Below, piece after piece: positions 37,072 to 58,608 of a DNA stretch of 64,000 bases (position 1 is its first letter; every line of letters begins with the position of its first letter). Origin of the DNA: Clostridiaceae bacterium. GTDB taxonomy: Bacteria; Bacillota; Clostridia; Lachnospirales; Lachnospiraceae. The translations under genes and the position numbers were made by a program. The notes beneath the pieces were generated by a model. The model was not told the origin of the DNA. It saw only the letters and a list, made by a program, of their open reading frames with translations, and did not search any database. The stretch lies in the NCBI GenBank assembly GCA_910574345.1, contig CAJSZV010000001.1:1-64000 (forward strand), in the 5' to 3' direction.

Positions 37072-37099
37072 AAATAAAAGGTAGCCCTAGATGGGCCTT

Positions 37100-37140
37100 C
37101 TTGAAAAATGCTACAATGAACCTAAAATTTTTCAAGGAGG
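37100..37140 (+). promoter_or_regulatory. Hairpin abutting the recombinase ribosome binding site
   Basis: CTTGAAAAAT (37100-37109) pairs with ATTTTTCAAG (37127-37136), and the stem ends on the first G of GGAGG (37136-37140). In an RNA this could limit translation of the recombinase. Confidence 0.4.
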
Positions 37141-37148
37141 CTCATTTT

Positions 37149-37994
37149 ATGGATAATATTGTATTAACGTTATCACATATTACTGAATATACTCATTTTC
37201 TTAAGGAAGAAGAGCGGGCGGCTGCCACAGTCGAAAAGTATCTGCGGGATATTCGGGCTTTTGTTCTGTGGATGGATGGCGGTCAGGTGACAAAGGAGGC
37301 GGTTATCCGCTGGAAATCTCATTTGTTAGAGAGCGGTCAGGCGCCGGTTACGGTCAACACAAAGCTGTCCGCCATCAACGGCTTGTTTCGCTACCTGGGT
37401 TGGAATGACTGCAGAGTAAAGTTTCTGAAGGTTCAGAGGCGTGTATTCCGTGATACTTCACAGGAACTGACACGGGAAGAGTATAACCGTCTGTTAAATG
37501 CAGCCAGGAATCAGCGCATGGAGTGGCTGGAACTTCTCATGGAGACGATCTGCGCTACGGGAATTCGGGTATCGGAGGTGAAATATATTACAATAGAAGC
37601 TTTGAAAGCAGGGCGTACGGACATCTCTCTTAAAGGTAAGATTCGAACCATCCTTTTGCCTGACAAACTGTGTCGGAAATTAATAAAATACGCTAAAAAA
37701 GAAAAAATCGCTTCCGGGGCAATCTACCGCACCGGCAAAGGAGATAGTCTGTCACGATATCAAATCTGGAAAGCCATGAAGATGTTGTGTGTAAAAGCAA
37801 AAGTGAAGACATCTAAAGTGTTCCCCCATAATCTGCGTCACCTTTTCGCTGCTACATTCTATCGCGTGACACGAGATATTGTTAAGCTGGCGGATGTGTT
37901 GGGCCACAGTTCAGTGGAGACGACCCGTATTTATCTTATTGCAACAGGAATGGAGCATTTGAAACAGCTGGAAAGGATGGGACTGGTCAGTTGA
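37149..37994 (+). CDS. Tyrosine recombinase, probable DNA invertase of the adhesin switch
   Basis: 281 residues from ATG 37149 with GGAGG upstream. A SAM-like core-binding domain (residues 5-90) precedes the catalytic domain, with R in ICATGIRVSEVKYI, K in KGKIRTILLP, HNLRH, the later GHSS histidine and the Tyr nucleophile in TTRIYLIATG. All catalytic residues are present. It lies immediately before a segment flanked by inverted palindromic sites (37999-38019 and 38279-38299), the arrangement of phase-variation invertases in Firmicutes. It is otherwise isolated, with no excisionase or phage genes. Confidence 0.88.
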   Translation: MDNIVLTLSHITEYTHFLKEEERAAATVEKYLRDIRAFVLWMDGGQVTKEAVIRWKSHLLESGQAPVTVNTKLSAINGLFRYLGWNDCRVKFLKVQRRVFRDTSQELTREEYNRLLNAARNQRMEWLELLMETICATGIRVSEVKYITIEALKAGRTDISLKGKIRTILLPDKLCRKLIKYAKKEKIASGAIYRTGKGDSLSRYQIWKAMKMLCVKAKVKTSKVFPHNLRHLFAATFYRVTRDIVKLADVLGHSSVETTRIYLIATGMEHLKQLERMGLVS

Positions 37995-37998: not shown

Positions 37999-38019
37999 AA
38001 CAGAATCCATATTCTGTTG
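37999..38019 (+). repeat. Left recombinase site (inverted repeat IRL)
   Basis: Half-sites AACAGAAT and ATTCTGTT around the asymmetric spacer CCAT. The same site occurs inverted at 38279-38299 with one mismatch. An 8-bp palindrome with a short spacer is the expected binding site of a tyrosine recombinase dimer. Confidence 0.8.
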
Positions 38020-38053
38020 AATAACAGAAAGACAATTACATATTTTCTTCAAT

Positions 38054-38083
38054 ATTATAGCATAGGGGAAATGCCTAATGCAA
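38054..38083 (-). promoter_or_regulatory. Strong minus-strand promoter inside the invertible segment
   Basis: Read on the minus strand: TTGCAT (38083-38078), 18 bp, then TGCTATAAT with TATAAT at 38059-38054, an extended -10 promoter. It currently faces left, away from the adhesin. Confidence 0.65.
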
Positions 38084-38193
38084 TAGCTGCAAGAAATTTT
38101 ATGCTGATTTTATGGGCGGATTGAAAAAAATGTATATGAAATAAAGGCTGCAAAAAAATATTATTTGCCGCTTTTTCTTTTTGTGCCTTTTGC

Positions 38194-38225
38194 GCACCGG
38201 ATATCTTATGCCGGTGCCTTTTTTT
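38194..38225 (+). terminator. Rho-independent terminator inside the invertible segment
   Basis: GCACCGG (38194-38200), 10-nt loop, CCGGTGC (38211-38217), then CTTTTTTT. In this orientation it stops transcripts entering from the recombinase side. Confidence 0.75.
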
Positions 38226-38278
38226 GCCTTAAACACGGATTTTCCGTTTTATTATACGTAACATTTTAGAGTTATGTG

Positions 38279-38299
38279 CAACAGAATATGGATTCCGTT
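38279..38299 (-). repeat. Right recombinase site (inverted repeat IRR)
   Basis: Half-sites AACAGAAT and ATTCCGTT around the spacer ATGG, the inverse of the left site (CCAT), with one C/T change. The opposed spacer orientation predicts inversion rather than excision. Confidence 0.8.
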
Positions 38300-38331: not shown

Positions 38332-38799
38332 ATGAGACATTCCACGAAAAAACTGGATTTGACTGGCCAGCGGTACGGGAATCTGACGGTCATAGCTTCG
38401 GCTGAGAATATCGGCAGCAAGACGGCATGGCTGTGCCGGTGTGATTGTGGGAAGGAAGCAGTGGTTAAAACCTATTATCTAAGGAACGGACATGTGACAA
38501 GCTGCGGATGTATAGGAACAGCTTCAGGACTTCAGAGTTTGACTTATGTAGACGGGACCTGCGTGGAGATGTTACGAGCCAAGACTGTACGCTGCAACAA
38601 TACCAGTGGAGTTCCAGGGGTAGATTGGAGAAGGTCAAAGGGTACATGGCGGGCATCCATTTGCTTCAAGGGAAAAAGGTATTATCTTGGCAGTTACCGA
38701 TGTTTTGATGATGCTGTAAAAGCACGTAAAAGGGCAGAAGAGAACTTACACGATCGGTTTTTGACGGAGTTCACTGCGAAACTGCTGCCCGACAAATAA
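38332..38799 (+). CDS. AP2-domain DNA-binding protein
   Basis: 155 residues, ATG 38332 with GGGGAGAGG upstream. The N-terminal half has a small Cys motif (CRCDCGKEAVV, VTSCGCIG) seen in phage-type AP2 proteins and probably binding zinc. The C-terminal half is an AP2 domain: GVPGVDWRRSKGTWRASICFKGKRYYLGSYRCFDDAVKARKRAEE (about 95-140). Bacterial AP2 domains bind DNA and often accompany HNH homing nucleases, but no HNH motif is present here. Lying between the invertible promoter and the adhesin leader, it is a candidate regulator co-expressed with the adhesin. Confidence 0.75.
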   Translation: MRHSTKKLDLTGQRYGNLTVIASAENIGSKTAWLCRCDCGKEAVVKTYYLRNGHVTSCGCIGTASGLQSLTYVDGTCVEMLRAKTVRCNNTSGVPGVDWRRSKGTWRASICFKGKRYYLGSYRCFDDAVKARKRAEENLHDRFLTEFTAKLLPDK

Positions 38800-38939
38800 G
38801 GTGAATGCAAGCGTCTTGACAACACTGCTTTATAACAGGAATTGTCCATGAAGAAGGGGAGGCTGTATGGAACAGGAAGATATTACAGTGATAAGCCCTG
38901 CCGGCACATGCGCCTCTGGCGGCAGGAGCAGAGGGAAGA

Positions 38940-39036
38940 AGGCGCAGGGGCAAACCACGGGAAACTGTGGGACTGCAAAGCTATGGGAACTAAAGTATCG
39001 TTATATAAGGTGCGGTGCTATGTTAGCCCGGCTGCT
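38940..39036 (+). ncRNA. c-di-GMP-I (GEMM-I) riboswitch, first of two
   Basis: The conserved GEMM-I elements appear in order: GGGGCAAACC, a GAAA-capped hairpin (CCACGGGAAACTGTGG), GACTGCAAAGC, GGGAACTAAAG, then the second hairpin with the tetraloop-receptor-like CTATGTTAGCCCGGCTGC. This aptamer class binds cyclic di-GMP. The ORFs that overlap it are not genes. Confidence 0.8.
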
Positions 39037-39039
39037 AGA

Positions 39040-39148
39040 ATTCAGGCAACCCGTTCGAAAGGGCGGCATCGCAAAGCCAGGGGACTAAAGCATCAGCCTT
39101 TTTTGAAGGATGTTCAAAGAGATATGTTATGTCAGCCCAGCTGCCGGA
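39040..39148 (+). ncRNA. c-di-GMP-I (GEMM-I) riboswitch, second of two
   Basis: CAGGCAACCC, GTTCGAAAGGGC, ATCGCAAAGCC, GGGGACTAAAGC and TATGTCAGCCCAGCTGCC repeat the GEMM-I order directly after the first aptamer. After it, CTTTGC (39151-39156) can pair with GCAAAG (39172-39177), which overlaps the ribosome binding site of the adhesin gene, so control at the level of translation is plausible. Confidence 0.78.
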
Positions 39149-39187: not shown

Positions 39188-42100
39188 GTGAAGAGAGATA
39201 AGGTTAATAATATTTTAAAGGGTGCATTTGCCGTCGGAACAGTTCTTGGCGGTTCAGCCCTGTTTTCTGATATGGATGTAGTGTATGCCTCTGAACTGGA
39301 AGAATCAGGCAGTGAGGATATTGTTTTGCCGTCGGATGATGAATCGTCGGACTATGCGGAGGACTGTGGTTCGAATGAGGACGATTACAGCCCGGAAGAG
39401 GATTCCGATTCTGAGGAAAATTTAGATTCGGATGAGATAAATGACTCGGAGGACGGGTCGGATACGGGAGACGGCGGAAGTACGGAGGATGTGCCGGATA
39501 CAGGAAATAACGGAAGTACGGAAGATGTGCCGGATACAGGAAATAACGGGAGTACGGAGGACACATCAGATACAGGAGACGGAGGGAGTACGGAGGACAC
39601 GTCAGATACAGGAGATAGCGGAAGTACAGAGGATGTACCGGATACAGGAGACGGCGGAAATACGGAGGACAGCGCAGTTCCTGACAATGGTGGTTCTGAT
39701 AATGATGAGAATTTAGATGAAAATGAGGATCAGGATGAGACTCCTGATGATATCAAATTAGAAACAGACGGGACAGAAAACGAGGATGAAATTTCTGACG
39801 AAACGCCGGATAATAACCATGGAAATGATGAGGCTGACAATAATGTTCTGCAAGAGGATAGCGGCCAAACCGGGGATTCTGAAAAGACAGGTGATGTGAG
39901 TGATCCGGAAGACAGTGCTGATTTAGAGGATGGTGGTATTTCTGATAAGGTGCTGGATGAAATTGTGCAGGGAAGCCAAAGTATAGAAAAAAGTCTTGCT
40001 AAAAGTACCAGTATGGAACAGAGTACTAGCATAAGTGGAGCCAATAGTGAGAGTGAGTCCGCCAGCACAAGCGGATCGACGAGTGAGAGTGAGTCTGCCA
40101 GTACAAGCGGATCGACGAGTGAGAGTGAGTCTGCCAGTACAAGCGGATCGACGAGTGAGAGTGAGTCTGCCAGTACAAGCGGATCAGTGAGTGGGAGTGA
40201 ATCGGCGAGTACCAGTTTAAGTTCCAGTGAATCAGCGAGCACCAGTTTATCCCAGAGCGAGAGTGAAAGCGGCAGCATGAGTCTGTCTCAGAGCGAGAGC
40301 GTCAGTACAAGTTTGTCTCAAAGCGAGAGTGGCAGCACGAGTTTGTCCCAGAGTGAAAGTAGCAGCACGAGCCTGTCCCAGAGTGAAAGCGCAAGTACAA
40401 GTTTGTCCCAAAGGGAGAGTGGCAGTGCGAGTCTGTCTCAAAGTGAAAGCGCCAGTACGAGTTTGTCCCAAAGGGAGAGTGCCAGCGCGAGTTTATCTCA
40501 GAGCGAGAGCGTCAGTACCAGTTTATCTCAGAGTGAAAGCACTAGCACGAGCCTGTCCCAAAGAGAGAGTGCCAGTACAAGTCTGTCCCAAAGTGAAAGT
40601 GCGAGCACCAGTTTGTCCCAGAGTGCGAGCGCTAGTACGAGTTTGTCCCAGAGCACGAGCATATCGCAGAGTGAAAGCGCTAGCATGAGCCTGTCGCAGA
40701 GTGATAGTGCCAGCACGAGTTTGTCTCAAAGTGCGAGCGCCAGCACGAGCTTGTCTCAGAGTGAAAGTGCCAGCACGAGCTTGTCTCAGAGTGAAAGTGC
40801 CAGTACCAGTTTATCTCAAAGTGAAAGCGCCAGCACGAGTTTGTCCCAGAGTGAGAGTGTAAGCACGAGCATATCTCAAAGTGAAAGTGCGAGCACCAGC
40901 TTATCGCAGAGTGAAAGTGCCAGCACGAGTTTGTCGCAGAGTGAAAGTGCCAGCACGAGCTTGTCTCAGAGTGAGAGTGTAAGCACGAGTTTATCTCAAA
41001 GTGAGAGTGCCAGTACCAGTTTATCTCAAAGTGAAAGCGCCAGCACGAGTTTGTCCCAGAGTGAGAGTGTAAGCACGAGCATATCTCAAAGTGAAAGTGC
41101 CAGCACGAGTCTGTCTCAGAGCGAGAGCGCCAGCACCAGTATATCCCAGAGTGAGAGTGAAAGCGCCAGTACCAGTTTGTCTCAAAGTGAGAGCGTAAGC
41201 ACAAGCCTGTCTCAGAGTGCGAGCGCCAGCACGAGCTTGTCGCAGAGTGAAAGTGCCAGCACGAGCCTGTCCCAGAGTGAAAGCGCTAGTACGAGTTTGT
41301 CCCAGAGTGAGAGTGTAAGTACGAGCATATCTCAAAGTGAAAGTGCGAGCACGAGTTTGTCTCAGAGTGCGAGCGCCAGCACGAGCCTGTCCCAGAGTGA
41401 AAGCGCTAGTACAAGTTTGTCTCAGAGCGAGAGTGTAAGCACGAGCATATCTCAAAGTGAAAGTGCGAGCACGAGTTTGTCTCAGAGTGAGAGCGCGAGC
41501 ACGAGCCTGTCTCAGAGTGAGAGTGTAAGCACGAGCATATCTCAAAGTGAAAGCGCGAGCACGAGTTTGTCTCAGAGTGAGAGCGCGAGCACGAGTCTGT
41601 CGCAGAGTGAAAGTGTAAGCACAAGCATATCTCAAAGTGAAAGCGCGAGCACGAGTTTGTCTCAGAGTGAGAGCGCGAGCACGAGTCTGTCGCAGAGTGA
41701 AAGTGTAAGCACAAGCATATCTCAAAGTGAAAGCGCGAGCACGAGTTTGTCTCAGAGTGAGAGTGTAAGCACGAGCATATCTCAAAGTGAAAGTGCCAGC
41801 ACGAGTTTGTCTCAGAGTGAGAGCGCGAGCACGAGTCTGTCGCAGAGTGAAAGTGTAAGCACAAGCATATCTCAAAGTGAAAGCGCGAGCACGAGTTTGT
41901 CTCAGAGTGAGAGCGCGAGCACGAGTCTGTCGCAGAGTGAAAGTGTAAGCACAAGCATATCTCAAAGTGAAAGCGCGAGCACGAGTTTGTCTCAGAGTGA
42001 GAGCGTAAGCACGAGCATATCTCAAAGTGAAAGCGCGAGCACGAGTCTGTCTCAGAGTGAGAGTGTAAGCACGAGCATATCTCAAAGTGAAAGTGCGAGC

Positions 42101-43909
42101 ACGAGTTTGTCGCAGAGCGAGAGTGCCAGCACGAGTTTATCTCAAAGTGAAAGTGCCAGCACGAGCCTGTCGCAGAGCGAGAGTGTAAGCACGAGCATAT
42201 CTCAAAGTGAAAGTGCGAGCACGAGTTTGTCTCAGAGTGAGAGTGTAAGCACGAGCATATCTCAAAGCGAAAGTGCCAGCACGAGCCTGTCTCAAAGTGA
42301 AAGCGCTAGTACAAGTTTGTCTCAGAGCGAGAGTGTAAGCACGAGCATATCTCAAAGTGAAAGCGCTAGTACAAGTTTGTCTCAGAGTGAGAGTGTAAGC
42401 ACGAGCATATCTCAAAGTGAAAGTGCCAGCACGAGTTTATCTCAAAGTGAAAGCGCGAGCACGAGTTTGTCTCAGAGTGAGAGTGTAAGCACGAGTATAT
42501 CTCAAAGTGAAAGCGCTAGTACGAGTTTGTCGCAGAGTGAAAGTGTAAGCACAAGCATATCTCAAAGTGAAAGTGCGAGCACGAGTTTGTCTCAGAGTGA
42601 GAGTGTAAGCACGAGCATATCTCAAAGTGAAAGTGCCAGCACCAGTTTATCTCAGAGTGAAAGTGCCAGCACGAGTTTGTCTCAGAGTGAGAGTGCCAGC
42701 ACGAGTATATCTCAAAGTGAAAGCGCGAGCACGAGCCTGTCGCAGAGCGAGAGTGTAAGCACGAGTATATCTCAAAGTGAAAGCGCGAGCACGAGTTTGT
42801 CTCAGAGTGAGAGTGTCAGCACGAGCATATCTCAAAGTGAAAGTGCGAGCACGAGTCTGTCGCAGAGTGAAAGTGTAAGCACAAGCATATCTCAAAGTGA
42901 AAGCGCGAGCACGAGTTTGTCTCAGAGTGAGAGCGTAAGCACGAGCATATCTCAAAGTGAAAGCGCGAGCACGAGTCTGTCTCAGAGTGAGAGTGTCAGC
43001 ACGAGCATATCTCAAAGTGAAAGTGCGAGCACGAGTTTGTCGCAGAGCGAGAGTGCCAGCACGAGTTTATCTCAAAGTGAAAGTGCGAGCACGAGCCTGT
43101 CGCAGAGCGAGAGTGTAAGCACGAGCATATCTCAAAGTGAAAGTGCGAGCACGAGTTTGTCTCAGAGTGAGAGTGTAAGCACGAGCATATCTCAAAGCGA
43201 AAGTGCCAGCACGAGCCTGTCTCAAAGTGAAAGCGCTAGTACAAGTTTGTCTCAGAGCGAGAGTGTAAGCACGAGCATATCTCAAAGTGAAAGCGCTAGT
43301 ACAAGTTTGTCTCAGAGTGAGAGTGTAAGCACGAGCCTATCCCAGAGCGAAAGCGCCAGCACCAGCCAGTCCCAGAGCGAGAGCATAAGTACCAGCATAT
43401 CTCAAAGTGAGAGCGCCAGCACCAGCCAGTCCCAGAGTGAGAGCGCCAGCACCAGCCAGTCCCAGAGCGAGAGCATAAGTACCAGCATATCTCAAAGTGA
43501 GAGCGCCAGCACCAGCCAGTCCCAGAGTGAGAGTGCCAGCACCAGCTCGTCCCAGAGTGAGAGCGTAAGCACCAGTGAGCCGACCAGCACCAGTGAGTCA
43601 ACAAGTGTCAGCCAGTCGACGAGCACCAGTGAATCCACCAGGAATCCCGGAGGAGATGATCCGTCTCCGGAAGAGCCTTCTCGCTCATTTGTAACTCCGC
43701 CGGCTGAGACGGTTACCATCGTAGATGAAGAAGTGCCTCTTGCGGTAATTGACGAGGATTATCTTGAAATTTTTGATGAGGAGGTACCTCTTGCCGGACT
43801 TCCCAAGATGGGTGATTCCTCTCTGTCTCCTAAGGGACTGCTGGGAACTATGGCAATGTCCTTCCTGGGAGCTGTGGGAATTATAAAAAGGCGGAAAGAC
43901 GAAATATAA
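39188..43909 (+). CDS. Serine-rich repeat glycoprotein adhesin, accessory-Sec substrate
   Basis: 1573 residues from GTG 39188 (AAAGGAG 39175-39180); the ATG at 39110 lies in the riboswitch. An N-terminal signal-like segment ([26 protein letters not shown]) is followed by an acidic region (about 35-260) with [12 protein letters not shown]-like repeats. A serine-rich region of over 1150 residues consists of decapeptides such as [10 protein letters not shown] and [10 protein letters not shown]. The end has an LPKMG sortase-like motif, a hydrophobic segment ([16 protein letters not shown]) and KRRK. The serines are the expected O-glycosylation sites for GtfA/GtfB. No globular ligand-binding domain of the usual type is visible. 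The secretion genes follow on the same strand. Confidence 0.9.
40038..43630 (+). repeat. 30/60-bp coding tandem repeats of the adhesin
   Basis: The DNA repeats with a 30-bp period (one decapeptide). In the central part it shows a 60-bp higher-order unit encoding [10 protein letters not shown] then [10 protein letters not shown]. Long near-identical blocks suggest expansion by recombination. This array also creates many long antisense and shifted open frames that are not genes. Confidence 0.9.
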
Positions 43910-43925: not shown

Positions 43926-44118
43926 CTTTCGATGTTGCACCAGCCACCCTATGAAAGCCGATTGCTCCGCGCCTTTGGCGCTCCACAATCGCCGCTAGTA
44001 TTCGTAATCCGGCCTGTCGGCCTGCTTACTCATACCAGCTTGGTTGCCCGATATCCATGGTTCATCGCAAGCAAGCTTGCATTCACCATGGCTGCCGGTC
44101 AACACTTTCATAGTAAAC
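43926..44118 (+). repeat. Structured tandem repeat, copy 1
   Basis: The core 43949-44113 is closed by CTATGAAAG and CTTTCATAG and holds inner hairpins: CGATTG..CAATCG enclosing GCGCCTTTGGCGC, GGCCTGTCGGCC, and CATGGT..ACCATG enclosing GCAAGCAAGCTTGC. A second copy follows about 203 bp downstream with paired base changes. Family not recognised; it may be a structured RNA or a palindromic mobile repeat. Confidence 0.75.
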
Positions 44119-44130: not shown

Positions 44131-44320
44131 TTTGACGTTGCACCAGCCACCCTATGAAAGTCGATTGCTCCGGGCTACGCCCTCACGCAATCGCCGCCAG
44201 TATTCGCAATCCAGGCTATCGCCTTACTTGCTCATACTGGCTTGCCTGGCCGATACCCATGATTCGATGCAAGCAAGCTTGCTCTCATCATGGCTGCCGT
44301 CCAGGACTTTCATAGTAAGT
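44131..44320 (+). repeat. Structured tandem repeat, copy 2
   Basis: The core 44152-44315 has the same plan as copy 1. Hairpins are kept while their sequence differs: GGGCTACGCCC for the first inner stem, AGGCTATCGCCT for the second, and CATGAT..ATCATG for the third. Changes on both sides of the stems indicate that pairing is conserved. Confidence 0.75.
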
Positions 44321-44327: not shown

Positions 44328-44370
44328 AATATTAGCGGCCATCTTTTTTGTGAAGGTGGTCGCTGATATT
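44328..44370 (+). promoter_or_regulatory. Hairpin before secY2
   Basis: AATATTAGCGGCCA (44328-44341) pairs with TGGTCGCTGATATT (44357-44370) with two mismatches, around a loop containing TCTTTTTTG. It could attenuate read-through from the adhesin gene into the secretion genes. Confidence 0.4.
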
Positions 44371-44470
44371 ATGATACCACGGGTTTCAGGGCCAAAAAAC
44401 CTTTTACAAGCAAGTCTGCCTCAGATTTTGCGGCCTTTTGCCCCTGGCATCGTCTTATTGGGGAGAGAGT

Positions 44471-45676
44471 ATGACGCAGACCGAAGAAAAAACACCGATT
44501 TTGAAATATAAACTTGCATATGCCATGATCATCATACTTGTGTACCTGATTGGGAGAAGGATTCCATTATGCGGGGTTGATGTGTCTGCCCACAGAGCCG
44601 TATCCGGTGACGCGGAAACATTGCTGATACAGGCTGTCGGCGGAGATGTGAACCGATACTCCCTCTTTACTCTGGGAATGTCCCCCTATATGCTTTCCAT
44701 GATTTTGATTCAGATTTTGACGGCATTTCGCAATACCGGGAAAAAGGTCAGGCTGTCTCCGGGAAAAATGAACCGTATGCAGATTGCACTGACTATAGTT
44801 TTTGCCATATACCAGGCTGTTATGCGGGTACAGCAGCTGAAGTTTAAGGCAGACGGTGCGATGCTTCTTCTGGTCAGAACCGCTGCTGTGACGGAGATGA
44901 TAGCCGGTGTCATGCTGATTATGTGGCTGTCAGGAAGAAACAGGAAGTACGGGCTGGGCGGACATACGGTCCTGATCTACATAAATATTCTGGACGGAAT
45001 TTTAAAAACCCTGATACGGCACAGTATTGCATCTCTTTTCCTGCCATTGACTGTGGCAATAGCTGTCATGGCTGTCACGCTGATAATGGAAGGCGGGGAA
45101 AAGAGGATTCCTATGCAGCGCATTTCTATCTACAATATCTATGCAGATAAGAATTATCTTGCAATTAAACTTAACCCTGTAGGGATTATGCCGGTGATGT
45201 TTTCCACAGCTTTTTTTATGCTGCCTCAGATGGCGTTCGCCGGGCTTCATCTGATTTTCCCGGAAAATGAAACCATAATCTGGTGGCAGGAGAATCTGAT
45301 TTTGACAGAACTTCCAGGGATTCGGGTATACATTGTCATCCTGTATCTTCTTACGGTTGGATTTGCCATGATCATGATCAGTCCGGTCGGGATTGCAGAG
45401 CAGTTTTTAAAAGGAGGGGACAGTATTATGAACCTTCATGCAGGGCGGGATACCAGAAGATACCTTACCAGGCAGGTTTTAGGTATCGGTTTTTTCAGTG
45501 CTACAGTGATGAGCATATGTCTTGGAATTCCCATGCTTTTGCAGTTAAAAGGCGGTATTGACAGAGAACTGGTGATGTTTCCCGCATCCGTTATGATGAT
45601 GACCAGCCTGTGGTACAGCATTGACCAGGAGTTTAAGGCTGTAAAAAGTTTTGAAACCTATAAGCCGTTTATCTAG
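44471..45676 (+). CDS. secY2: Accessory Sec translocase channel SecY2
   Basis: 401 residues from ATG 44471 (GGGGAG upstream), with about ten membrane segments in the SecY arrangement, including an early IIILVYLIGRRIPL helix, SLFTLGMSPYMLSMILIQIL and a QRISIYNIYADKNYLAIKLNP loop. SecY2 forms the membrane pore through which the accessory Sec system exports glycosylated serine-rich repeat proteins. It is the first of eight closely spaced genes on the same strand behind the adhesin. Confidence 0.9.
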   Translation: MTQTEEKTPILKYKLAYAMIIILVYLIGRRIPLCGVDVSAHRAVSGDAETLLIQAVGGDVNRYSLFTLGMSPYMLSMILIQILTAFRNTGKKVRLSPGKMNRMQIALTIVFAIYQAVMRVQQLKFKADGAMLLLVRTAAVTEMIAGVMLIMWLSGRNRKYGLGGHTVLIYINILDGILKTLIRHSIASLFLPLTVAIAVMAVTLIMEGGEKRIPMQRISIYNIYADKNYLAIKLNPVGIMPVMFSTAFFMLPQMAFAGLHLIFPENETIIWWQENLILTELPGIRVYIVILYLLTVGFAMIMISPVGIAEQFLKGGDSIMNLHAGRDTRRYLTRQVLGIGFFSATVMSICLGIPMLLQLKGGIDRELVMFPASVMMMTSLWYSIDQEFKAVKSFETYKPFI

Positions 45677-45685: not shown

Positions 45686-47281
45686 ATGTTACATTTTATA
45701 CCAGCCTGGTATCAACAGAATACATGGCATGAAAATGAGCAGAAGTGGTATGTGCGGCGTATGCACACAGAGTTTGACGATACGGTAAAACAGATACAGC
45801 TGTTTCACCGCAATAAGGTTTATCCGTACCGGCTTCTGCTGTTAAGTTTTTCACCTAATCTCCGCCATTTTCTTCACAGGCAGGGCGTCTATCATGCCCC
45901 ATACTGGTCCTGTTTTGATGGGATTCAGGAAGTGAAGAGGACGAAAGCTGTCATATTATCCTTTCATAATATGAAGTGGCCGGCCCACACGGAGTTTGTG
46001 TACAGTCCCTTTGTGGTCACAGCCCTTTTAAAAGGGGAAAAATACGCCCAGGTGGAGTTCGGTGAGGATGGCAATCCCATTGAGATTGATATCTATAAAA
46101 ACGGTATTCTTTACCGCCGCAATATCTATGACGACCGCGGGTTTGTCTCCGCCACTACCATTTACAGAGACGGACAGCCTTTGTACCGGGATTATCTTAT
46201 GGAAAACGGTGTCTGGAAACTGAGATGCTTTCAGGATGACGGACATGTGGAAGTAAATCCTGCCTGGACCGGTTACCGTCTTGCCTATCAGGACAAGGAG
46301 CAGACCAGGACATTTGTGAGTCTTCGTTATGACAGTATGGAGCAGGTGATACGGGAGGTGCTTTCATCCTATCTGGAACTGACACAAGAGACGGATTTAT
46401 TTTGTGCAGCCATGGATGGACACCATGCCAATTTGCTCAGAGAGGTTTTAAAGGATAAAAAAGTAATCCTGTCCTTTTTCGAAAAACGCTATGATTATGA
46501 AACCCATGGACTGGATAGGGATGCTGTCGCGATGGCAGACTGCATCGTCACGGATTCCCGTGAGGCTTCCAAAAAGATCGGGGAAAGTCTCGGAGGGGCC
46601 GTAAGGAAAATTACGGATATATCGCCTTATGACACCAGGGTGGATTTCGGTATCAGCCAGCAGCTGAAGGTGCAGAAGATCCTGGTGCCTGTAGATGGTC
46701 TGAAGGAAGAAGACTTTGGCAGAATCATCACAGTCCTGGGACAGTATCTTATGAAAAATGAAAACGCCAGGGTTCATCTCTTTACCAGGCAGGCGGAGTA
46801 CGACAGAAAGGACCGGCTTTTAGAGCAGGTGCGTATGCATCTTAGATCCGCCGGTCTTATAGAAGCGTGGGGGAAAAAGGAAGAACGCCAGGGAGTCTCA
46901 GAGAATCTTGTAGACCCTGCAGATCAGATTGAGGCCCGCTTTTTTGCAGAGCAGTGTGTAGATGAATTATCCGTGAGCAAATGCATACGGGAGCAGAGAG
47001 TGATTCTGGATATGAGAGAAGCCCCCACCCTGTATCTGCAGGTCATGGCAGTCAGCGCCGGGATTCCCCTGATTACGGGATGTGAGACTCCGTTTGTAGA
47101 GCATGGCGGCAACGGAAGGGTCATTCATAGCATAGATGAACTGCCCTGTGCCCTTACTTACTATCTGGACAGTCTGTCGAACTGGAACGACGCCATGGTT
47201 TATTCCTATGAGCTTGGCAGAAAGTACACTTCGGAGGCATTGATCAATAAGTGGAAAGAGGTTATGGATTACATTGGATAA
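45686..47281 (+). CDS. asp1: Accessory Sec protein Asp1
   Basis: 531 residues, ATG 45686 with AGGAGGAG upstream. The N-terminus MLHFIPAWYQQNTWHENEQKWYVRR and the following FDDTVKQIQLFHRN are characteristic of Asp1, a glycosyltransferase-fold protein without activity that, with Asp2 and Asp3, binds the adhesin and SecA2 at the membrane. It overlaps asp2 by 8 nt. Confidence 0.88.
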   Translation: MLHFIPAWYQQNTWHENEQKWYVRRMHTEFDDTVKQIQLFHRNKVYPYRLLLLSFSPNLRHFLHRQGVYHAPYWSCFDGIQEVKRTKAVILSFHNMKWPAHTEFVYSPFVVTALLKGEKYAQVEFGEDGNPIEIDIYKNGILYRRNIYDDRGFVSATTIYRDGQPLYRDYLMENGVWKLRCFQDDGHVEVNPAWTGYRLAYQDKEQTRTFVSLRYDSMEQVIREVLSSYLELTQETDLFCAAMDGHHANLLREVLKDKKVILSFFEKRYDYETHGLDRDAVAMADCIVTDSREASKKIGESLGGAVRKITDISPYDTRVDFGISQQLKVQKILVPVDGLKEEDFGRIITVLGQYLMKNENARVHLFTRQAEYDRKDRLLEQVRMHLRSAGLIEAWGKKEERQGVSENLVDPADQIEARFFAEQCVDELSVSKCIREQRVILDMREAPTLYLQVMAVSAGIPLITGCETPFVEHGGNGRVIHSIDELPCALTYYLDSLSNWNDAMVYSYELGRKYTSEALINKWKEVMDYIG

Positions 47282-48782
47282 GATTCAGGTATTACAAGTA
47301 GGGCATAAAAATTGGAAAAAAGTCTATACATTGCCGGACAGCCTGGAGCTTTGCCATGTGAGCAGATTAAATAAACCCCTTCCGAAACTTTATGACCTGG
47401 TTTTTCTGGACAGGACTTTAAATGACAGAGAGGCAGACCTGCTCCACAAAGCTACAAAGGCCTATACCCTGTTTGTGACAGACCAGGCAGAGATGACAGA
47501 CAGAATGGAATGGCTTTATAAAAGCAAAAAAGGGAGAAGGATTCCGGAGGCGGATATTCAGGGATTCCTGCTTCACGAGGCGAGAAATTATTTTTCAAAA
47601 CCTTATGGAGAGAAGTTTAAACCATATCATGTGGCCATTGCCCAGGGCTTTCACGGCAGCGTAAAGTGGGAGGGCAGTTACTGTGTCCGCCTGAATGGAG
47701 ATTTTGGAACAGAATTCAACCAGGCAGTATACTGGAGAAACAATATTCCTCTGTTCGAAGGTCAATGTCTCGATCTGTGGCTGGAGTATCAAAAGGATGA
47801 ACAGGTATCCATTGCGCTGTCAGTGATTCAGTTTGTGAACGGAGGCCTTGCCGATGTTCAGCAAAAGTGGAGGTTCTCAGAGGAAGAACTGGAACGGGAA
47901 GTTCAGATCGACAATCAATCTTCCGATGGTATTCTTTTCGTCTCTGTTTTAGCCAAAGGAAGGGGAGAACTTCGGATTATAGGGCTTCATAACAGGTATT
48001 CCAGGAGAGGATGGGGACTTTTTCTCCCTGGAGGAGAACGGTATATTACCTCGAAACGGGAAGAAGTATTCTGTTATTTTGATCCGGGGGATATGAAGCC
48101 GCCTTTGAATGTGTATTTTTCCGGTTATAAAACCGTAGAAGGATTTGAGGCTTACCATCTGATACGAAGTATGGGCTGCCCGTTTCTTCTGATCGCCGAG
48201 GCCAGACTGGAAGGCGGATGCTTCTATATGGGGTCAGAGGAATATGAATCTATGCTGTGCGGCGCCATCATGAAGTATATGAAGGAGCTTGGGTTTACAC
48301 CGGATCAGGTTATCCTGTCAGGGATTTCCATGGGAAGCTTCGGAGCCATGTATTACGGATGTGATATCAGGCCCTATGCCGTTCTTTTAGCAAAGCCTTT
48401 GCTGAGTATCGGCATGGTGGCTGCAAAAGAGAAGCTTTACCGTCCAGGCGGATTTTCCACATCTCTTGATATTTTAAGGTATTTGTATGGCAGTGCAGAT
48501 GAAGAGGCAGTGGAGAGGCTGAACAAACGGTTCTGGGATAAATTCGACAGGACGGACTGGAAAGAATCTCAAATTATTGCCTCTTATATGATCGAAGATG
48601 ATTATGATGATTCTGCTTATCCGGGGCTTTTGTCCCATCTCCATTCCGACGGAGTACAGTTATATGGAAAAGGGTTTCACGGCAGGCATAACGACAATTC
48701 GGACGGAGTAATAGAGTGGTTTTCCAGTCGTTTAAAACAGATATTGATAGAGGATTTCCAGAGAAAGGCGGACAGGTCATGA
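47274..48782 (+). CDS. asp2: Accessory Sec protein Asp2 (acetyltransferase-like)
   Basis: 502 residues. The start is a TTG at 47274 inside the end of asp1. The C-terminal half has an alpha/beta-hydrolase-like nucleophile motif ILSGISMGSFG (Ser352) and a late histidine in GFHGRHND, matching the catalytic Ser and His described for Asp2, which O-acetylates GlcNAc on the adhesin and also helps export. Its stop overlaps the asp3 start as ATGA. Confidence 0.87.
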   Translation: MDKIQVLQVGHKNWKKVYTLPDSLELCHVSRLNKPLPKLYDLVFLDRTLNDREADLLHKATKAYTLFVTDQAEMTDRMEWLYKSKKGRRIPEADIQGFLLHEARNYFSKPYGEKFKPYHVAIAQGFHGSVKWEGSYCVRLNGDFGTEFNQAVYWRNNIPLFEGQCLDLWLEYQKDEQVSIALSVIQFVNGGLADVQQKWRFSEEELEREVQIDNQSSDGILFVSVLAKGRGELRIIGLHNRYSRRGWGLFLPGGERYITSKREEVFCYFDPGDMKPPLNVYFSGYKTVEGFEAYHLIRSMGCPFLLIAEARLEGGCFYMGSEEYESMLCGAIMKYMKELGFTPDQVILSGISMGSFGAMYYGCDIRPYAVLLAKPLLSIGMVAAKEKLYRPGGFSTSLDILRYLYGSADEEAVERLNKRFWDKFDRTDWKESQIIASYMIEDDYDDSAYPGLLSHLHSDGVQLYGKGFHGRHNDNSDGVIEWFSSRLKQILIEDFQRKADRS

Positions 48783-49243
48783 CAGGGGAGAGATGGAGCA
48801 TATATTGGAATGAATATTCCGCGGATACCTATCTGTATGGGTCAGAGATTACATATCACCGGAAAGATGATGTGGAGTTTGTGAATAAGATGATGGCTCC
48901 TGGAACTGTGATCAAACGGTGGTATTCCAGGACCAATTATCAGGCGCAGAAGATCGAACCGGCCCTTCCCATGATCGACGGGGAGAGCGCTTACCGGATG
49001 GTTGTCAATATTGATACTCTTCCGGGTGAGGCGTGGCTGGTGAAACTGGTGTTTTATGACAGGTATGAGACAGAAGCAGGAAATTTGATCATAAGGGATA
49101 AGGTCACGGATTTTAAATGTCCCCTTAAGACTTACAGCTATGAAATGCAGCTGATCAACGGGGGTCTTACGGGATTTCATTATCATTCTATTGTGATTCA
49201 GGAAATAACCTATGAGACAGAAGAAGCATCTGAAAGAGTTTAA
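48779..49243 (+). CDS. asp3: Accessory Sec protein Asp3
   Basis: 154 residues from ATG 48779, coupled to asp2. The N-terminal GERWSIYWNEYSADTYLYGSEITY and LVKLVFYDRYETE in the middle fit the small beta-sandwich Asp3, which holds Asp1 and Asp2 together and binds unfolded serine-rich repeats. It overlaps secA2 by 32 nt. Confidence 0.85.
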   Translation: MTGERWSIYWNEYSADTYLYGSEITYHRKDDVEFVNKMMAPGTVIKRWYSRTNYQAQKIEPALPMIDGESAYRMVVNIDTLPGEAWLVKLVFYDRYETEAGNLIIRDKVTDFKCPLKTYSYEMQLINGGLTGFHYHSIVIQEITYETEEASERV

Positions 49244-51548
49244 CAAAATTTTACAGAAAGTCAAAGGCTTTCGGGATTACATGAGCCGTTTAAGCGGTGA
49301 GGACCTGTCTCATCTGACGGATCTGTTTAAAGAACGTTTGAGACAAGGGGAGACCCTTGACGACATCTTACCGGAGGCCTATGCCGCCATTTGCGAAGCC
49401 GATTACCGGATTCTGGGGAAATTCCCTTTTGATGTCCAGATTCTGGGAGCAATCGCTCTTCATAAAGGAATTCTGGCGGAGATGAACACCGGGGAGGGAA
49501 AGACTCTCACAGCCACCATGCCCTTATATCTCAACGGCCTGTCTGGAAAAAGCACCATGCTGCTGACCAGCAATGACTATCTGGCCTTAAGGGATGCCGA
49601 GGAGATGGGGCAGGTCTACCGGTTTATGGGGCTTTCCGTGGCTGTGGGAGTAAGCCGGAGGGCGGAACAACCTTTAACCAACAAAGAGAAAAAGGAAATC
49701 TATGCCGCCGATATTGTGTATACCACTCACGGCGGCCTTGGTTTTGATTATCTTGCCAATAACCTGGTAACCAAGGCGGAGGACCGCTTTTTAAGAGAAT
49801 TTTATTATGTGATTATCGACGAAGCAGATTCCGTATTATTAGACGCTGCCCAGACTCCTCTTGTAATCTCCGGTTCCCCCAGAGTTCAGTCCAACCTCTA
49901 TGAACTGGCGGACTTTTTTGTCACGACTCTGGCAGAGGGCAGGGATTATGAGAAAGAGGAGAACGCAGTCTGGCTGACGAAAGAAGGCATAAGCTACGCC
50001 GAAGGTTTCTTTCAGATCGACAATTTTTATGATTCCCGGTATTTTGAGATCAACAGGCATGTAACCCTGGCCCTCAGAGCCCACACGCTGTTCGAGAAGA
50101 AAAAGTCCTATATGATCTCGGACAGCGGCGAACTGCAGCTGCTTGACGGCGGGTCAGGCCGGCTTATGGCAGGGGTCAAGTTAAGAGGAGGGCAGCATCA
50201 GGCTTTAGAGGCCAAGGAAAAACTGAAGATATCCCAGGACAGCCGTTCCATGGCTTCCGTTACTTTTCAGACTCTTTTTCGGATGTTTCCCAGGATGTCA
50301 GGCATGAGCGGCACCATCTCGGATGCCGCCCCGGAGATTCGGGATATTTACCACACAGATGTAGTGGTGATCCCCCCAAATCGTCCGGTGCAGAGGAAAG
50401 ACTTAAAAGATCAGTATTACAAAAATAAAGGGGAGCAGTTTGCTGCTGCTATGGAGCGTGCCATTGCTGTCCACAGGACAGGGCAGCCGGTACTCATCGT
50501 GGTCACTACGATTCCGGAGACGGAACTGGCATCAGGCTATCTGGTGCAGGCCAATATCCCTCACAGCGTTCTCAATGCTGACAACGCTTTTTGGGAAGCA
50601 CAGATCATAAAAGAGGCTGGGCAGATCAACGCCGTTACCGTCTCCACCGGTATGGCAGGAAGAGGGACGGATATCAGACTGGGAGAAGGAGTGAAAGAGT
50701 TAGGCGGGCTTGCAGTAATCGGAGTGGGGCGTATGGGCAATGTCCGGCAGGAGCGTCAGGCCAGAGGCCGGGCAGGAAGACAGGGAGACCCTGGAATCAG
50801 CCAGTTTTTCGTATCTCTCCAGGATGGGGTGGTAGAAGGAAACGGTCCTTCTGATCTGGACAAATATATAGAAGGCAAAAAAGGGATAAGCGGAAGGAAA
50901 CTGAAAAAGATCATTGACAGAGCCCAGGCATTGGGGGAGGAACTGGCTGTCATGTCCCGGAGCCGCTCCGTAAATTACGACCAGGTGATTCAGCAGCAGC
51001 GGGAACTGATGTACGACACCAGAAACCGGCTATTGGACGGCGGGGGCATGGATGAGAAGAAACTGCTTGAGATTGCAGAGGGAAATATCAGCCGGTTTGT
51101 CAGAGGACAGTCTTCCATGACCCTTATGAGTCTTCACCGATATATCCTGGATCATATCTCTTACAGGCTGGATGGAAAGACCCGTGAGATCGGTCTGGAT
51201 GACTCATCTGCCGTGGAAGAGTATCTGATGAAGCGGGTGCGTCAGGGCCTGGAGGAAAAGAAGAAAAGGACAGGAAGCCAGGTGCAGTTAAACCGATTTA
51301 TGCGCATAGCCGCCTTAAATGCCATTGACAGCGCATGGATCGAGCAGGTGGACTATCTGCAGCAGATGCAGGCCGCCATATCCGGAAGGGCTTTGGCCCA
51401 GAGGAATCTTTTGTTTGAGTTCCAGAAAGACGGTCTGGAGGCTTTTGAAAAGATGGAACTTACGATTCTGGAGAATATTATGAGAAATATTCTTCTCAGC
51501 AATGTATATATGGATGCAGACAAGAGGATTCATATTCTGTTTCCGTAG
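49212..51548 (+). CDS. secA2: Accessory Sec ATPase SecA2
   Basis: 778 residues, shorter than housekeeping SecA (800-900), as usual for SecA2. Walker A MNTGEGKT is at 91-98, then YTTHGGLGFDYL, VIIDEADSVL (DEAD-type motif), SGMSGT, TVSTGMAGRGTDI and QARGRAGRQGDPG, all SecA motor motifs. The zinc-binding C-terminal tail of SecA1 is missing. It powers export of the glycosylated adhesin through SecY2. Confidence 0.93.
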   Translation: MRQKKHLKEFNKILQKVKGFRDYMSRLSGEDLSHLTDLFKERLRQGETLDDILPEAYAAICEADYRILGKFPFDVQILGAIALHKGILAEMNTGEGKTLTATMPLYLNGLSGKSTMLLTSNDYLALRDAEEMGQVYRFMGLSVAVGVSRRAEQPLTNKEKKEIYAADIVYTTHGGLGFDYLANNLVTKAEDRFLREFYYVIIDEADSVLLDAAQTPLVISGSPRVQSNLYELADFFVTTLAEGRDYEKEENAVWLTKEGISYAEGFFQIDNFYDSRYFEINRHVTLALRAHTLFEKKKSYMISDSGELQLLDGGSGRLMAGVKLRGGQHQALEAKEKLKISQDSRSMASVTFQTLFRMFPRMSGMSGTISDAAPEIRDIYHTDVVVIPPNRPVQRKDLKDQYYKNKGEQFAAAMERAIAVHRTGQPVLIVVTTIPETELASGYLVQANIPHSVLNADNAFWEAQIIKEAGQINAVTVSTGMAGRGTDIRLGEGVKELGGLAVIGVGRMGNVRQERQARGRAGRQGDPGISQFFVSLQDGVVEGNGPSDLDKYIEGKKGISGRKLKKIIDRAQALGEELAVMSRSRSVNYDQVIQQQRELMYDTRNRLLDGGGMDEKKLLEIAEGNISRFVRGQSSMTLMSLHRYILDHISYRLDGKTREIGLDDSSAVEEYLMKRVRQGLEEKKKRTGSQVQLNRFMRIAALNAIDSAWIEQVDYLQQMQAAISGRALAQRNLLFEFQKDGLEAFEKMELTILENIMRNILLSNVYMDADKRIHILFP

Positions 51549-51561
51549 AGAAGGGGGACTT

Positions 51562-53061
51562 ATGATCTATAATTTTAATCTGGGCATCGGCTGGGCCAGC
51601 AGCGGCGTGGAATATGCCCAGGCTTACAGGGCAGGTGTGCTGCGGAGAATAGGCCGGGAGGCCAGATTTATTTTTACGGATATGTTTCCGACAGATAATA
51701 TTCAGCATATGACGGAGAATATTGGTTTTCTGGATTCGGAGGTTATCTGGCTGTACACTTTTTTTACAGACTGTAAAATCGCTCCGGTGACTTACACCTT
51801 GACGCAGCTGGAATCTACATTCGGTAATCGGAATTATTCGGTTTCAAGAGAGGGGGCCAGGGTAAAATACACCTTTGAGGGAACCAATATGTATTACATG
51901 GCTTATCTGACTGATGATACGAAAGACCGTGTCCACAGGGTGGAGATGGTCTCCGGCGGCTACCTGATTCGGAAAGATTATTTTACCTACTGCAGGATCT
52001 ACACGGAATATTATGCCCCTTTAGACCGCCAGGCTCACCTGTATCAGCGGAGGTTCTTCAATCAGGACGGGACCGTAGCCTATGAGGAGATCATGGATGG
52101 CGACGCGGTTATGTACCAGTTTCCGGACAGGCTCATCTGTTCCAAAGCAGAACTGGTGGGCTATCTGGTATCCAGGCTGAACCTTACGAAAGAGGATATG
52201 GTGATCATCGACAGGACTACGGATATCGGCCAGACCATTATGCAGAATGCAGCGCCGGCAAAGATCGGCATTGCTATACATGCGGATCATTTCAGCGAAA
52301 GCGGAACAGACGAAGATCATATCCTGTGGAATAACTACTATGAGTATGCCTTCTCTCAACACAAATATATGGATTTTTACATTGTATCCACAGACGCCCA
52401 GAACAGTCTTTTGGCGGAACAGTTCCGGAAATATATGGGTGTGGCTCCCTTTATCGTGACGATTCCTGTAGGAAGCCTGGATGAACTTAAGTACCCGGAA
52501 AGCGGAAGAATAAAGCATTCCCTCATTACCGCTTCAAGACTTGCCGGGGAAAAGCACATAGACTGGCTGATCGAAGCTGTGGCGGAGGTCAGAAAGACCG
52601 TGGGAGATGTATCCTTAGATATCTACGGGAAAGGGAAAGAGGAGGAGAGCCTAAGCAGGCTCATGGAAAGCCTTGACTGCACTGATTACATACGTCTGAG
52701 GGGACAGCACCGGATGGACCAGGTATACAAGGGGTATGAAGCCTACGTATCGGCATCCGCCAGCGAAGGGTTCGGCCTTTCCCTGATGGAAGCCATCGGT
52801 TCCGGTCTTCCTATTGTAGGGTTTGATGTCCGTTATGGCAATCAGAACTTTATTGACGAGGGTAAGAACGGGTATAAGATCCCTTACGATGAACGGATGG
52901 ATAAAAAGGAGCGGATTCATCACCTGGCCCGGTGTATCATCCGGTTGTTTACCCAGGCGGATCTGGAGGAGTTTCACAGACATTCCTATGAGAAGGCCCG
53001 TACCTATCTGACAGAGGAGGTGGAAAAGAGATGGATAAATTTATTAGACCGGATGATGTAG
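51562..53061 (+). CDS. gtfA: Serine-rich repeat protein O-GlcNAc transferase GtfA
   Basis: 499 residues from ATG 51562 (AAGGGGGAC upstream); the ORF extends 5' into secA2. The N-terminus MIYNFNLGIGWASSGVEYAQAYRA is the GtfA signature, and the GT4-type C-terminus has VSASASEGFGLSLMEAIGSGLPIVGFDVRYGNQNFI with the E-x7-E nucleotide-sugar motif. GtfA, with GtfB, adds the first GlcNAc to serines of the adhesin before export. It overlaps the next gene by 31 nt. Confidence 0.92.
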   Translation: MIYNFNLGIGWASSGVEYAQAYRAGVLRRIGREARFIFTDMFPTDNIQHMTENIGFLDSEVIWLYTFFTDCKIAPVTYTLTQLESTFGNRNYSVSREGARVKYTFEGTNMYYMAYLTDDTKDRVHRVEMVSGGYLIRKDYFTYCRIYTEYYAPLDRQAHLYQRRFFNQDGTVAYEEIMDGDAVMYQFPDRLICSKAELVGYLVSRLNLTKEDMVIIDRTTDIGQTIMQNAAPAKIGIAIHADHFSESGTDEDHILWNNYYEYAFSQHKYMDFYIVSTDAQNSLLAEQFRKYMGVAPFIVTIPVGSLDELKYPESGRIKHSLITASRLAGEKHIDWLIEAVAEVRKTVGDVSLDIYGKGKEEESLSRLMESLDCTDYIRLRGQHRMDQVYKGYEAYVSASASEGFGLSLMEAIGSGLPIVGFDVRYGNQNFIDEGKNGYKIPYDERMDKKERIHHLARCIIRLFTQADLEEFHRHSYEKARTYLTEEVEKRWINLLDRMM

Positions 53062-55445: not shown

Positions 55446-56441
55446 ATGAAAATGCATATTACGAATTTATATGGCGCCTGGGGTACCCATGCCTTTGCAC
55501 AGCAGAATGTTGCTCAAATTGCCGGAAAGATGGGATACAAGGAGATAGCTCTCTACAGTTATGGTGCAGAGTATGATACCCCTGGGGAACTGAGAAAAAG
55601 GCTTGATGGAATTACTTCGGCAGTAGAAGACGGAGATCTTGTTATATTTCAGTCTCCGTCATGGAATGCCACATATTATGATAAGAAACTGCTGGAAGTA
55701 ATCCGGCTTCACAGAGATATCCGGCTTGCAGTTTTTATCCATGATGTGATTCCCATGATGTTTGAGGGAGTTCCGGAAGAAAACTATAGTCAGGCAATAG
55801 AAATTTACAACATGGCTGATCTTGTCATCGTCCCCTCCGAAGAAATGCTGGCCTTTTTACAGAAAAACGGATTAAAGGTTGGACGGGTTCTGATTCAGAC
55901 CATGTGGGATTTGCCGTTTTCAGGGGAACTTAAGGTACCGGAGTTCAGAAGAGCCGTATTTTTTCCAGGTTCTCCTAAAAGGTTTGGCTTTGTGTCATCC
56001 TGGAATTATGATGTTCCCCTGGAACTGTTTACAAATGAGGATTTTGCGGCAGACGGGCAGAATATTCATCTGAATGGCTGGAAAAATATAACCGAACTCC
56101 TGATGGAATATGGGAAAGGCGGATTCGGCCTGATCTGGCCCCAGACAGTTCCGGCAAGCTATTATAAATATCACCAGCCCTATAAGCTATCAACCTACCT
56201 GGCCGCCGGGATTCCGGTTATCCTACGAAAAGGGCTTCCCAGAGAACAGGCTATTTTGGAATATGGGCTGGGATTTTCTGTTGATTCGGCAGAAGAGGCG
56301 GCAGATATTGTGAAAAACATTACAGAGGATGAGTATTACCAGCTGGTGGACAATATAAAAAATATCAGTTTTCTCATAAGGGGAGGATTCTTTACGAAAA
56401 AACTTTTGATGGATACAGTCAACTATCTCCTGTTAAGCTAA
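55446..56441 (+). CDS. Gtf3-type glycosyltransferase (sugar extension of the adhesin)
   Basis: 331 residues, ATG 55446 with AAGGAG upstream, 27 bp after the fusion gene. It aligns throughout with the C-terminal half of that fusion (HITNLYGAWG, FQSPSWN, FIHDVIPMMF, FVSSWNYD, GGFGLIWPQ, YLAAGIPVI, GGFFTKKLL), so it is a free-standing paralogue. In streptococci Gtf3 adds glucose to GlcNAc-Ser. Two copies suggest two steps or two sugar donors (inference). Confidence 0.86.
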   Translation: MKMHITNLYGAWGTHAFAQQNVAQIAGKMGYKEIALYSYGAEYDTPGELRKRLDGITSAVEDGDLVIFQSPSWNATYYDKKLLEVIRLHRDIRLAVFIHDVIPMMFEGVPEENYSQAIEIYNMADLVIVPSEEMLAFLQKNGLKVGRVLIQTMWDLPFSGELKVPEFRRAVFFPGSPKRFGFVSSWNYDVPLELFTNEDFAADGQNIHLNGWKNITELLMEYGKGGFGLIWPQTVPASYYKYHQPYKLSTYLAAGIPVILRKGLPREQAILEYGLGFSVDSAEEAADIVKNITEDEYYQLVDNIKNISFLIRGGFFTKKLLMDTVNYLLLS

Positions 56442-58439: not shown

Positions 58440-58608
58440 CAGACAAGTGATAGCGCTCCACATCTGTGACAGTACGCCGCATATTCTGCGTCGTCCCAGG
58501 AAGTCATGCCCGACCCGGCATAAAACCCTTCGGCGAAATCCCCTTTCTCAAAAAACGGCGGTCCGGCTATAGTTTTTTGATACTCTTGAATCCCGCGCCT
58601 CTATCCTG
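58440..58608 (-). ncRNA. Lysine riboswitch (L box)
   Basis: Minus strand from 58608: AGGATAGAGGCGCGGGATTC, AAGAGTA, GAGAAAGGGGATTTCGCCGA, AGGGTTTTATGCCGGGTCGGGC, ACTGTCACAGATG, GGAGCGCTATCACTTG. These are the conserved blocks of the L-box aptamer in the right order (GAGG.GCG, AAGAGTA, GGGGA..TCGCCGAAG, CTGTCA, GAGCGCTATC). Lysine binding would favour the downstream terminator. Confidence 0.85.

Follow-up and report, generated by a model that had tools for sequence, protein, structure and literature searches.

Promoters that lie between inverted sites, are turned by a site-specific recombinase and control a surface structure are familiar from the capsule loci of Bacteroides (Mpi) and from fimS of E. 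coli. The locus described here resembles those systems in layout. A closer relation by description is found in clostridial inverton group 139 with invertase group 35 (PMC11892184). There a short inverton has a gene for a tyrosine-type recombinase nearby, all but one of the 33 members belong to class Clostridia, orientation shifts in reads, and a printed example reads as 26-bp repeats 205 bp apart. Group 139 and our switch share a short inverton beside a tyrosine recombinase, a likeness of description. Hungatella is absent from the main text of that paper, and its passages on group 139 name no AP2 gene or riboswitch.

Inversion has also been combined with a c-di-GMP riboswitch, at cmrRST and flgB of C. 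difficile (PMC8844915; the C. difficile switches are also the subject of PMC5386303 and PMC7446863), and phase variation of c-di-GMP phosphodiesterases is already in print (PMC9286219). As PMC8844915 describes them, the C. difficile cmr and flagellar switches are like the present locus in placing both controls on the same operon. However, their riboswitch precedes the switch, whereas here a tandem class I riboswitch follows the switch and the first gene. Moreover, RecV of C. difficile inverts several sequences, whereas the recombinase here adjoins its switch; the two systems are likened by layout.

Our analysis concerns a window of 64,000 nt, the whole stretch of DNA under study. With a probability that we put at roughly 0.88, a 259-bp segment of this window is an invertible promoter, flipped by the adjacent tyrosine recombinase, that gates an AP2-adhesin operon together with a c-di-GMP riboswitch. 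The switch belongs to the known clostridial invertons. The recurring AP2 layout looks new: a search of the open-licence PMC literature found no account of an AP2 gene and surface protein, in many cases joined by a riboswitch, at switches of both recombinase classes. The locus offers a directly testable case, in a gut genus, of an adhesin with two inputs, random inversion and c-di-GMP.

Inverted sites, recombinase and bounded segment

The features at the switch are the following.

37089..37147, plus strand: hairpin over the recombinase ribosome-binding site in read-through RNA, TACAAT -10-like box in the loop (z -5.96, 0/200 shuffles as stable)
37149..37994, plus strand: tyrosine recombinase (Phage_integrase, 4.1e-22)
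37999..38018, plus strand: left recombination site, AACAGA-ATCCATAT-TCTGTT (inverted-pair search, site-pattern match)
38020..38278, no strand: putative invertible segment, 259 bp, between the sites (inverted pair, comparison with relatives' segments)
38054..38083, minus strand: candidate extended -10 promoter, TTGCAT-18-TATAAT, facing the recombinase (OFF) (motif, conserved placement)
38194..38225, plus strand: predicted intrinsic terminator, stem-loop and T-run, facing AP2 in the present orientation (RNA folding)
38280..38299, minus strand: right recombination site, one mismatch against the left and an identical 8-bp centre (inverted-pair search, site-pattern match)

The inverted pair (37999-38019 and 38279-38299) is 21 nt long, 95% complementary and 259 nt apart. 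Both copies take the form AACRGA-ATCCATAT-TCTGTT, in which 6-bp inverted arms enclose an asymmetric 8-bp centre equal in the two; short inverted arms with an asymmetric centre are the usual core site of a tyrosine recombinase. Allowing up to 3 mismatches, the pattern matches three times in the window against 0.02 expected, namely at both sites and at an unrelated 3-mismatch position, 51522. The viral contig set returned one site match, inside an unrelated viral contig, and no relatives of the recombinase.

The recombinase ORF is open from a TTG at 37101, has an ATG at 37149 preceded by AAGGAGG, and ends at 37994; the left site starts 4 bp later. Its product belongs to the Phage_integrase family and carries R140, K164, H227, R230, H253 and Y262, which are invariant across the genome's three paralogues and which we take to be the R-K-H-R-H-Y catalytic set of a tyrosine recombinase. 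The closest solved structures are mostly Xer proteins. A housekeeping XerC or XerD was considered and rejected on scores of 118.1 bits against a cut-off of 329.6 for XerD and 101.4 against 335.15 for XerC. The hairpin at 37089-37147, with a stem of 21 bp, would hide the recombinase ribosome-binding site in RNA arriving from upstream; the TACAAT box sits in its loop, so transcripts from the recombinase's own promoter would escape burial. By eye, the same arrangement is seen at a Hungatella orthologue, L083, and with other arms at L086 and L088.

Within the segment, the minus strand carries a -10 TATAAT (38059-38054) and a -35 TTGCAT (38083-38078) separated by 18 bp, with the TG of an extended -10. 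The -10 fits the consensus at 6/6 positions, TTGCAT at only 3/6 against TTGACA, and because of this poor -35 a simple promoter scan omits the element. The same scan reports the weak plus-strand candidates (9/12). Of 18 segments linked to a recombinase, 16 have a promoter-like element that faces back at 53-67 bp from the segment end; in 1 it faces forward, at 55 bp, and 1 has none. By consensus the element would be only a fair promoter, and the case for it is its conservation at a fixed place. Inversion maps position x to 76298-x, which would move the -10 to 38239-38244 and give AP2 (at 38332) a leader of about 80 nt.

These results bear out the structural claims of the earlier note. It had described two opposed 21-bp sites with one mismatch around 259 bp, directly after a complete tyrosine recombinase gene; a left-facing extended -10 promoter with an 18-bp spacer; a right-facing terminator; a start about 80 bp before AP2 upon inversion; and a weak plus-strand promoter candidate. 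Its view that the segment is now OFF also agrees with the directions in which promoter and terminator face. Beyond the note go the tandem c-di-GMP-I riboswitch, the further switches of this genome and the repeated occurrence of AP2, all described below.

In the mechanism that we propose, the adjacent recombinase would pair the two 20-bp sites and flip the segment. As assembled (OFF), the promoter would fire toward the recombinase and the terminator would stop rightward read-through. In the ON state, a transcript predicted to begin near 38251, about 80 nt before AP2, would run through AP2, the tandem c-di-GMP-I riboswitch and the adhesin, and perhaps through the accessory Sec and glycosylation genes. 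The riboswitch would probably gate the adhesin, which would then need both the switch ON and a permissive c-di-GMP level. AP2 itself would be made mainly in ON cells.

Recombinase-plus-promoter cassettes and their orientation in relatives

At E up to 1e-45, sampling of 397 genomes across the family finds the recombinase in 82, often in several copies. Among those fetched, which are part of all places found, 107 copies are distinct (108 rows, one duplicate). Of the 107, 78 show a strong inverted pair that begins no more than 130 bp past the recombinase end, 8 show a weak or long pair and 21 lack one; the counts over 78 loci given below leave out the last two groups. In 12 of the 21 pairless copies the contig continues for less than 400 bp downstream. 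By comparison, a strong inverted pair followed 1 of 516 other ORFs. Relatives at the level of Lachnospiraceae hold a large set of self-contained recombinase-plus-promoter cassettes, set before surface proteins, signal peptidases and polysaccharide genes. The first genes behind 64 scanned cassettes include signal peptidase S26 (10), AP2 (6), helix-turn-helix (4), Rrf2 (2), bacterial sugar transferase (2) and EAL (1), where the first downstream ORF was picked mechanically and ORFs of at least about 700 aa fall mostly outside the scan.

The cassette sites follow the consensus nACAKA-N8-TMTGTn. Their arms are palindromic (at least 5/6) in 68 of 78 loci, or in 70 when the range is widened a little; among 3900 local shuffles the share is 19.5%. 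The 78 loci hold 64 distinct centres; left and right centres are equal in 69, an equality partly favoured by the selection of good pairs, and some centres are clearly misplaced (e.g. L086, L112, L115, L175). In the window's own genome the three tyrosine cassettes have the centres ATCCATAT, ATCCGTAT and ATTTACCC, and such differences could keep them from recombining with each other. However, two cassettes of genome G004 share ATCCGTAT, so insulation by the centre is not a rule.

These cassettes bear on whether another recombinase, one of the two close paralogues or an Xer protein, flips the segment in trans. The paralogues are 66-68% identical and their sites have the same arm sequence; moreover, an AP2 switch in genome G044 (L240) is ON by motif and has no match to the recombinase queries in the 14 kb fetched. 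Against this, a separate pair lies no more than 10 bp from the end of every one of the genome's three recombinases, and the three centres differ. We consider action in trans improbable and retain the adjacent recombinase as the one that would flip the segment.

Evidence for inversion comes from the Hungatella orthologue L083 (G004:C8), whose recombinase and AP2 are 77% and about 80% identical to those of the window. A blastn comparison aligns its segment to that of the window on the opposite strand (E 7e-6; 74% over 66 bp), and the L083 promoter, likewise 55 bp from the segment end, is aimed at AP2; L083 is from another species, with an incomplete genome (completeness 73). We compared 80 segment interiors without use of the motif, and 31 pairs were reported, 27 in the same and 4 in opposite orientation. 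The four make up three cases: the window and L083; two cassettes on one contig at L142 (G332:C34), where those at 17650 and 5967 are opposed (80% over 173 bp); and L159, unclear by motif, against L172 and L179 (80% over 55 bp). Both opposed cassettes of L142 precede an Rrf2-type regulator.

By promoter motif, using a position-limited score, 56 of the 78 segments are OFF, 6 ON and 16 unclear, where a call needs a score of at least 10 and a margin of 2. Since 6.5% of 1560 shuffled segments reach 10 (1.5% reach 11 and 0.26% reach 12), weak calls are unsafe. Among the ON calls, L083 and L142 are backed by the motif-free comparison, and L146, L156, L164 and L168 are called by motif alone. Eight other loci of the genus Hungatella (L084-L091) and the two paralogues in the window's own genome are OFF by motif; switching may therefore be rare. 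Of the 107 loci, 13 have a contig edge no more than 400 bp past the recombinase (one cuts the gene) against 3 with an upstream edge, an excess that fits, as weak evidence, assembly breaks at flipping DNA.

The window has an inverted pair around a short segment with a promoter, recognised by motif and conservation, and both orientations occur among related loci. The earlier note had asked whether related genomes show both orientations and whether the sites are conserved next to the recombinase. The first was seen in L083 and the two further opposite cases, the second in 78 of the 107 fetched relatives, and its reading of an ON/OFF switch is supported by both.

Two other explanations have to be weighed here. 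The segment may once have inverted and now be locked OFF, or the sites may merely form a terminator or attenuator structure. All five switches found in the genome are OFF as assembled, one site carries a mismatch, and the paralogous locus on contig C5 has a truncated AP2 gene, as a locked segment might lead one to expect; yet the candidate catalytic residues are all in place, the 8-bp centres are preserved, and the segment of the orthologue L083 is inverted. As for an RNA structure, the sharing of one centre within most loci, amid so many distinct centres, fits recombination. Both versions are very unlikely in our judgement, and a segment that still inverts is the preferred reading.

Alternatively, inversion may be real while the key output is the recombinase itself, the OFF promoter running antisense into its gene and damping flipping. 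This draws on the place of the promoter, which in 56 of 78 segments points into the recombinase gene from some 60 bp beyond its end, and on the burial of the recombinase ribosome-binding site in read-through RNA, as if low expression were favoured. The promoter is needed for the ON state anyway, however, which makes its conservation uninformative on antisense, and two serine-recombinase loci share the placement. We regard this as rather unlikely, and continue with a switch whose main output is the AP2-adhesin operon.

Genes and RNAs behind the switch

The genes and RNAs downstream, all on the plus strand, are as follows.

38332..38799, plus strand: AP2-domain protein, the gene nearest to the switch on this side (AP2 model 21.5 bits, under its cut-off of 33.3)
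38939..39039, plus strand: c-di-GMP-I riboswitch aptamer 1 (53.9 bits)
39040..39148, plus strand: c-di-GMP-I riboswitch aptamer 2 (45.1 bits)
39188..43909, plus strand: serine-rich repeat surface protein, 1573 aa, LPKMG sorting-like end (sequence composition, domain scan)
44438..45676, plus strand: SecY2-like protein, accessory Sec system (domain match)
45686..47281, plus strand: Asp1 (domain match)
47274..48782, plus strand: Asp2 (domain match)
48716..49243, plus strand: Asp3 (domain match)
49212..51548, plus strand: SecA-type ATPase, SecA2 by position (domain match)
51502..53061, plus strand: GtfA (domain match)
53031..55418, plus strand: GtfB with a C-terminal sugar-transferase-like half (domain match)
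55446..56441, plus strand: sugar transferase-like, PRK09814 type, below cut-off (domain match)

In streptococci and staphylococci, loci for serine-rich repeat (SRR) glycoproteins run from the SRR protein through SecY2, Asp1-3 and SecA2 to GtfA and GtfB. The window holds an accessory Sec locus of this kind, with SRR substrate, SecY, Asp1-3, SecA, GtfA and GtfB. Its adhesin differs from the streptococcal and staphylococcal ones in an acidic N-terminal stretch that has no Pfam domain, in an LPKMG-like end, and in having inversion and a riboswitch in front. The likely start is a GTG at 39188 behind AAAGGAG, and half of residues 301-1480 are serine. The C-terminus (43790-43909) reads LPKMG, not LPxTG, and scores 46.1 with the NCBIfam double-LPXTG model against a cut-off of 48. 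GtfB is an apparent fusion whose second, sugar-transferase half is related to the next gene.

The first gene past the switch is AP2, not the adhesin, and both c-di-GMP-I aptamers that follow it pass the Rfam gathering score. Between switch and adhesin, the simple promoter scan finds no plus-strand site of at least 9/12, and when a looser scan admits extended -10 sites as well, none scores above 9 against 11 for the switch promoter. Just before the riboswitch there is a perfect -35 with a poor -10 (TTGACA-18-AATTGT, 38816). A promoter-like site of 9/12 lies at 44348-44375, before secY2, and expression of the Sec genes may therefore be independent of the switch. By their motifs, either site could bypass it. 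On folding, most of the adhesin ribosome-binding site stays unpaired in the window, and part of it pairs in a second riboswitch copy, on contig C8 of the same genome; a crude constraint changes little, and the predicted fold of the complete leader is no more stable than those of its shuffles (z -0.04).

Two further RNA features lie on the minus strand. Two tandem Clostridiales-1 RNAs (43949-44113 and 44152-44315) are found between adhesin and secY2, and a lysine riboswitch (58443-58611) precedes a gene of the Na+/H+ antiporter family.

AP2 genes behind switches of two recombinase classes

Besides the sub-cut-off AP2 match, the AP2 protein shows by our reading a cysteine-rich, zinc-ribbon-like N-terminal part. 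Its structure model is weak (pLDDT 73.0, pTM 0.43), and a sequence search reached the plant AP2 factor WRI1 (E 0.0056). It matches PHROG HNH families, mostly with its N- or C-terminal part only, phrog_13470 spanning residues 6-138. An HNH homing endonuclease with an AP2 domain was rejected, as the domain scan gave no HNH domain and only the AP2 match below cut-off. Resemblance to phage HNH endonucleases in a protein in which the domain scan found no HNH domain makes DNA binding the likely role. Moreover, the AP2 part hardly varies among eight Hungatella loci with differing sites, which suggests that it may have one common target across them.

The window's genome contains three full AP2 genes and one fragment, and the five switches found there comprise three of the tyrosine and two of the serine type. 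The AP2 copies on contigs C8 and C2 follow a serine recombinase (Resolvase; PHROG DNA invertase for the C8 copy), with inverted pairs of 22 nt at 91% around 113 nt and of 20 nt at 95% around 117 nt, respectively; in both, the promoter faces back, 46-49 bp from the segment end. The C8 locus (L196, G000:C8, 6423-11143) is a second riboswitch-preceded AP2/surface-protein operon, in which a tandem c-di-GMP-I riboswitch and then a surface protein, anchored by an LPXTG-type signal, come after AP2. Behind the third AP2 copy (L197, G000:C2, 6133-9831) come a GGDEF protein and a BTAD-type regulator. The Rfam scan found no riboswitch at this locus, and to judge by its genes the C2 switch may set c-di-GMP itself. 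The fragment (L026, G000:C5, 5601-5725) keeps roughly the first 41 codons of an AP2 gene, and the switch before it looks intact.

AP2, or a longer relative of it, is also the first gene behind inverted-repeat switches in other genera and at serine recombinases. A strong inverted pair ends within 90 bp upstream of 17 of 29 AP2-type genes against 0 of 245 control ORF starts. These 29 are part of the places found, with L236, L238 and L247 left out for having no upstream sequence; 9 were found via the recombinase and are not independent, and 8 of the other 20 have a strong pair. Pairs are likewise present at L231 and L240, where the fetched stretch gave no match to either recombinase query. Longer relatives, whose N-terminal parts are repeated, stand behind tyrosine (L233, L234, L237) and serine (L244, L245) recombinases, the pair at L244 being weak, and at L233, L234 and L244 they precede surface-protein-like ORFs of 1391-2031 aa.

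At 5 of 21 AP2 loci scanned against Rfam, a c-di-GMP-I riboswitch and then a large surface protein come after AP2, and all five have an inverted pair before AP2; some of the riboswitch-less loci (e.g. L083, L086) end soon after AP2. In G288, of another genus, L230 and L231 run from AP2 through a c-di-GMP-I riboswitch to an LPXTG-type protein. The fifth such locus, L087 of Hungatella, precedes a protein with DUF11 and InlB-type repeats. L232 of G288 has AP2 and then a relative of the adhesin (34% over the N-terminal part), with neither inverted pair nor riboswitch found by the pair search and Rfam scan.

That one probable DNA-binding gene recurs at switches whose recombinases belong to two unrelated classes suggests that phase variation has a control step in common. 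Tentatively, AP2 may be a domesticated relative of phage HNH endonucleases turned reporter of switch state: it would be made only when a switch is ON and would feed back either to the switches or to the surface operons that they precede, several of which are riboswitch-gated, uniting switches of unrelated recombinases into one c-di-GMP-linked network. We hold this full picture to be somewhat unlikely. Alternatively, AP2 may be a mere old passenger of surface operons.

Lastly, the AP2 switch of L240 (G044:C39, 5967-6160) stands in the ON arrangement by motif, and its sites resemble those of two other switches in genome G044.
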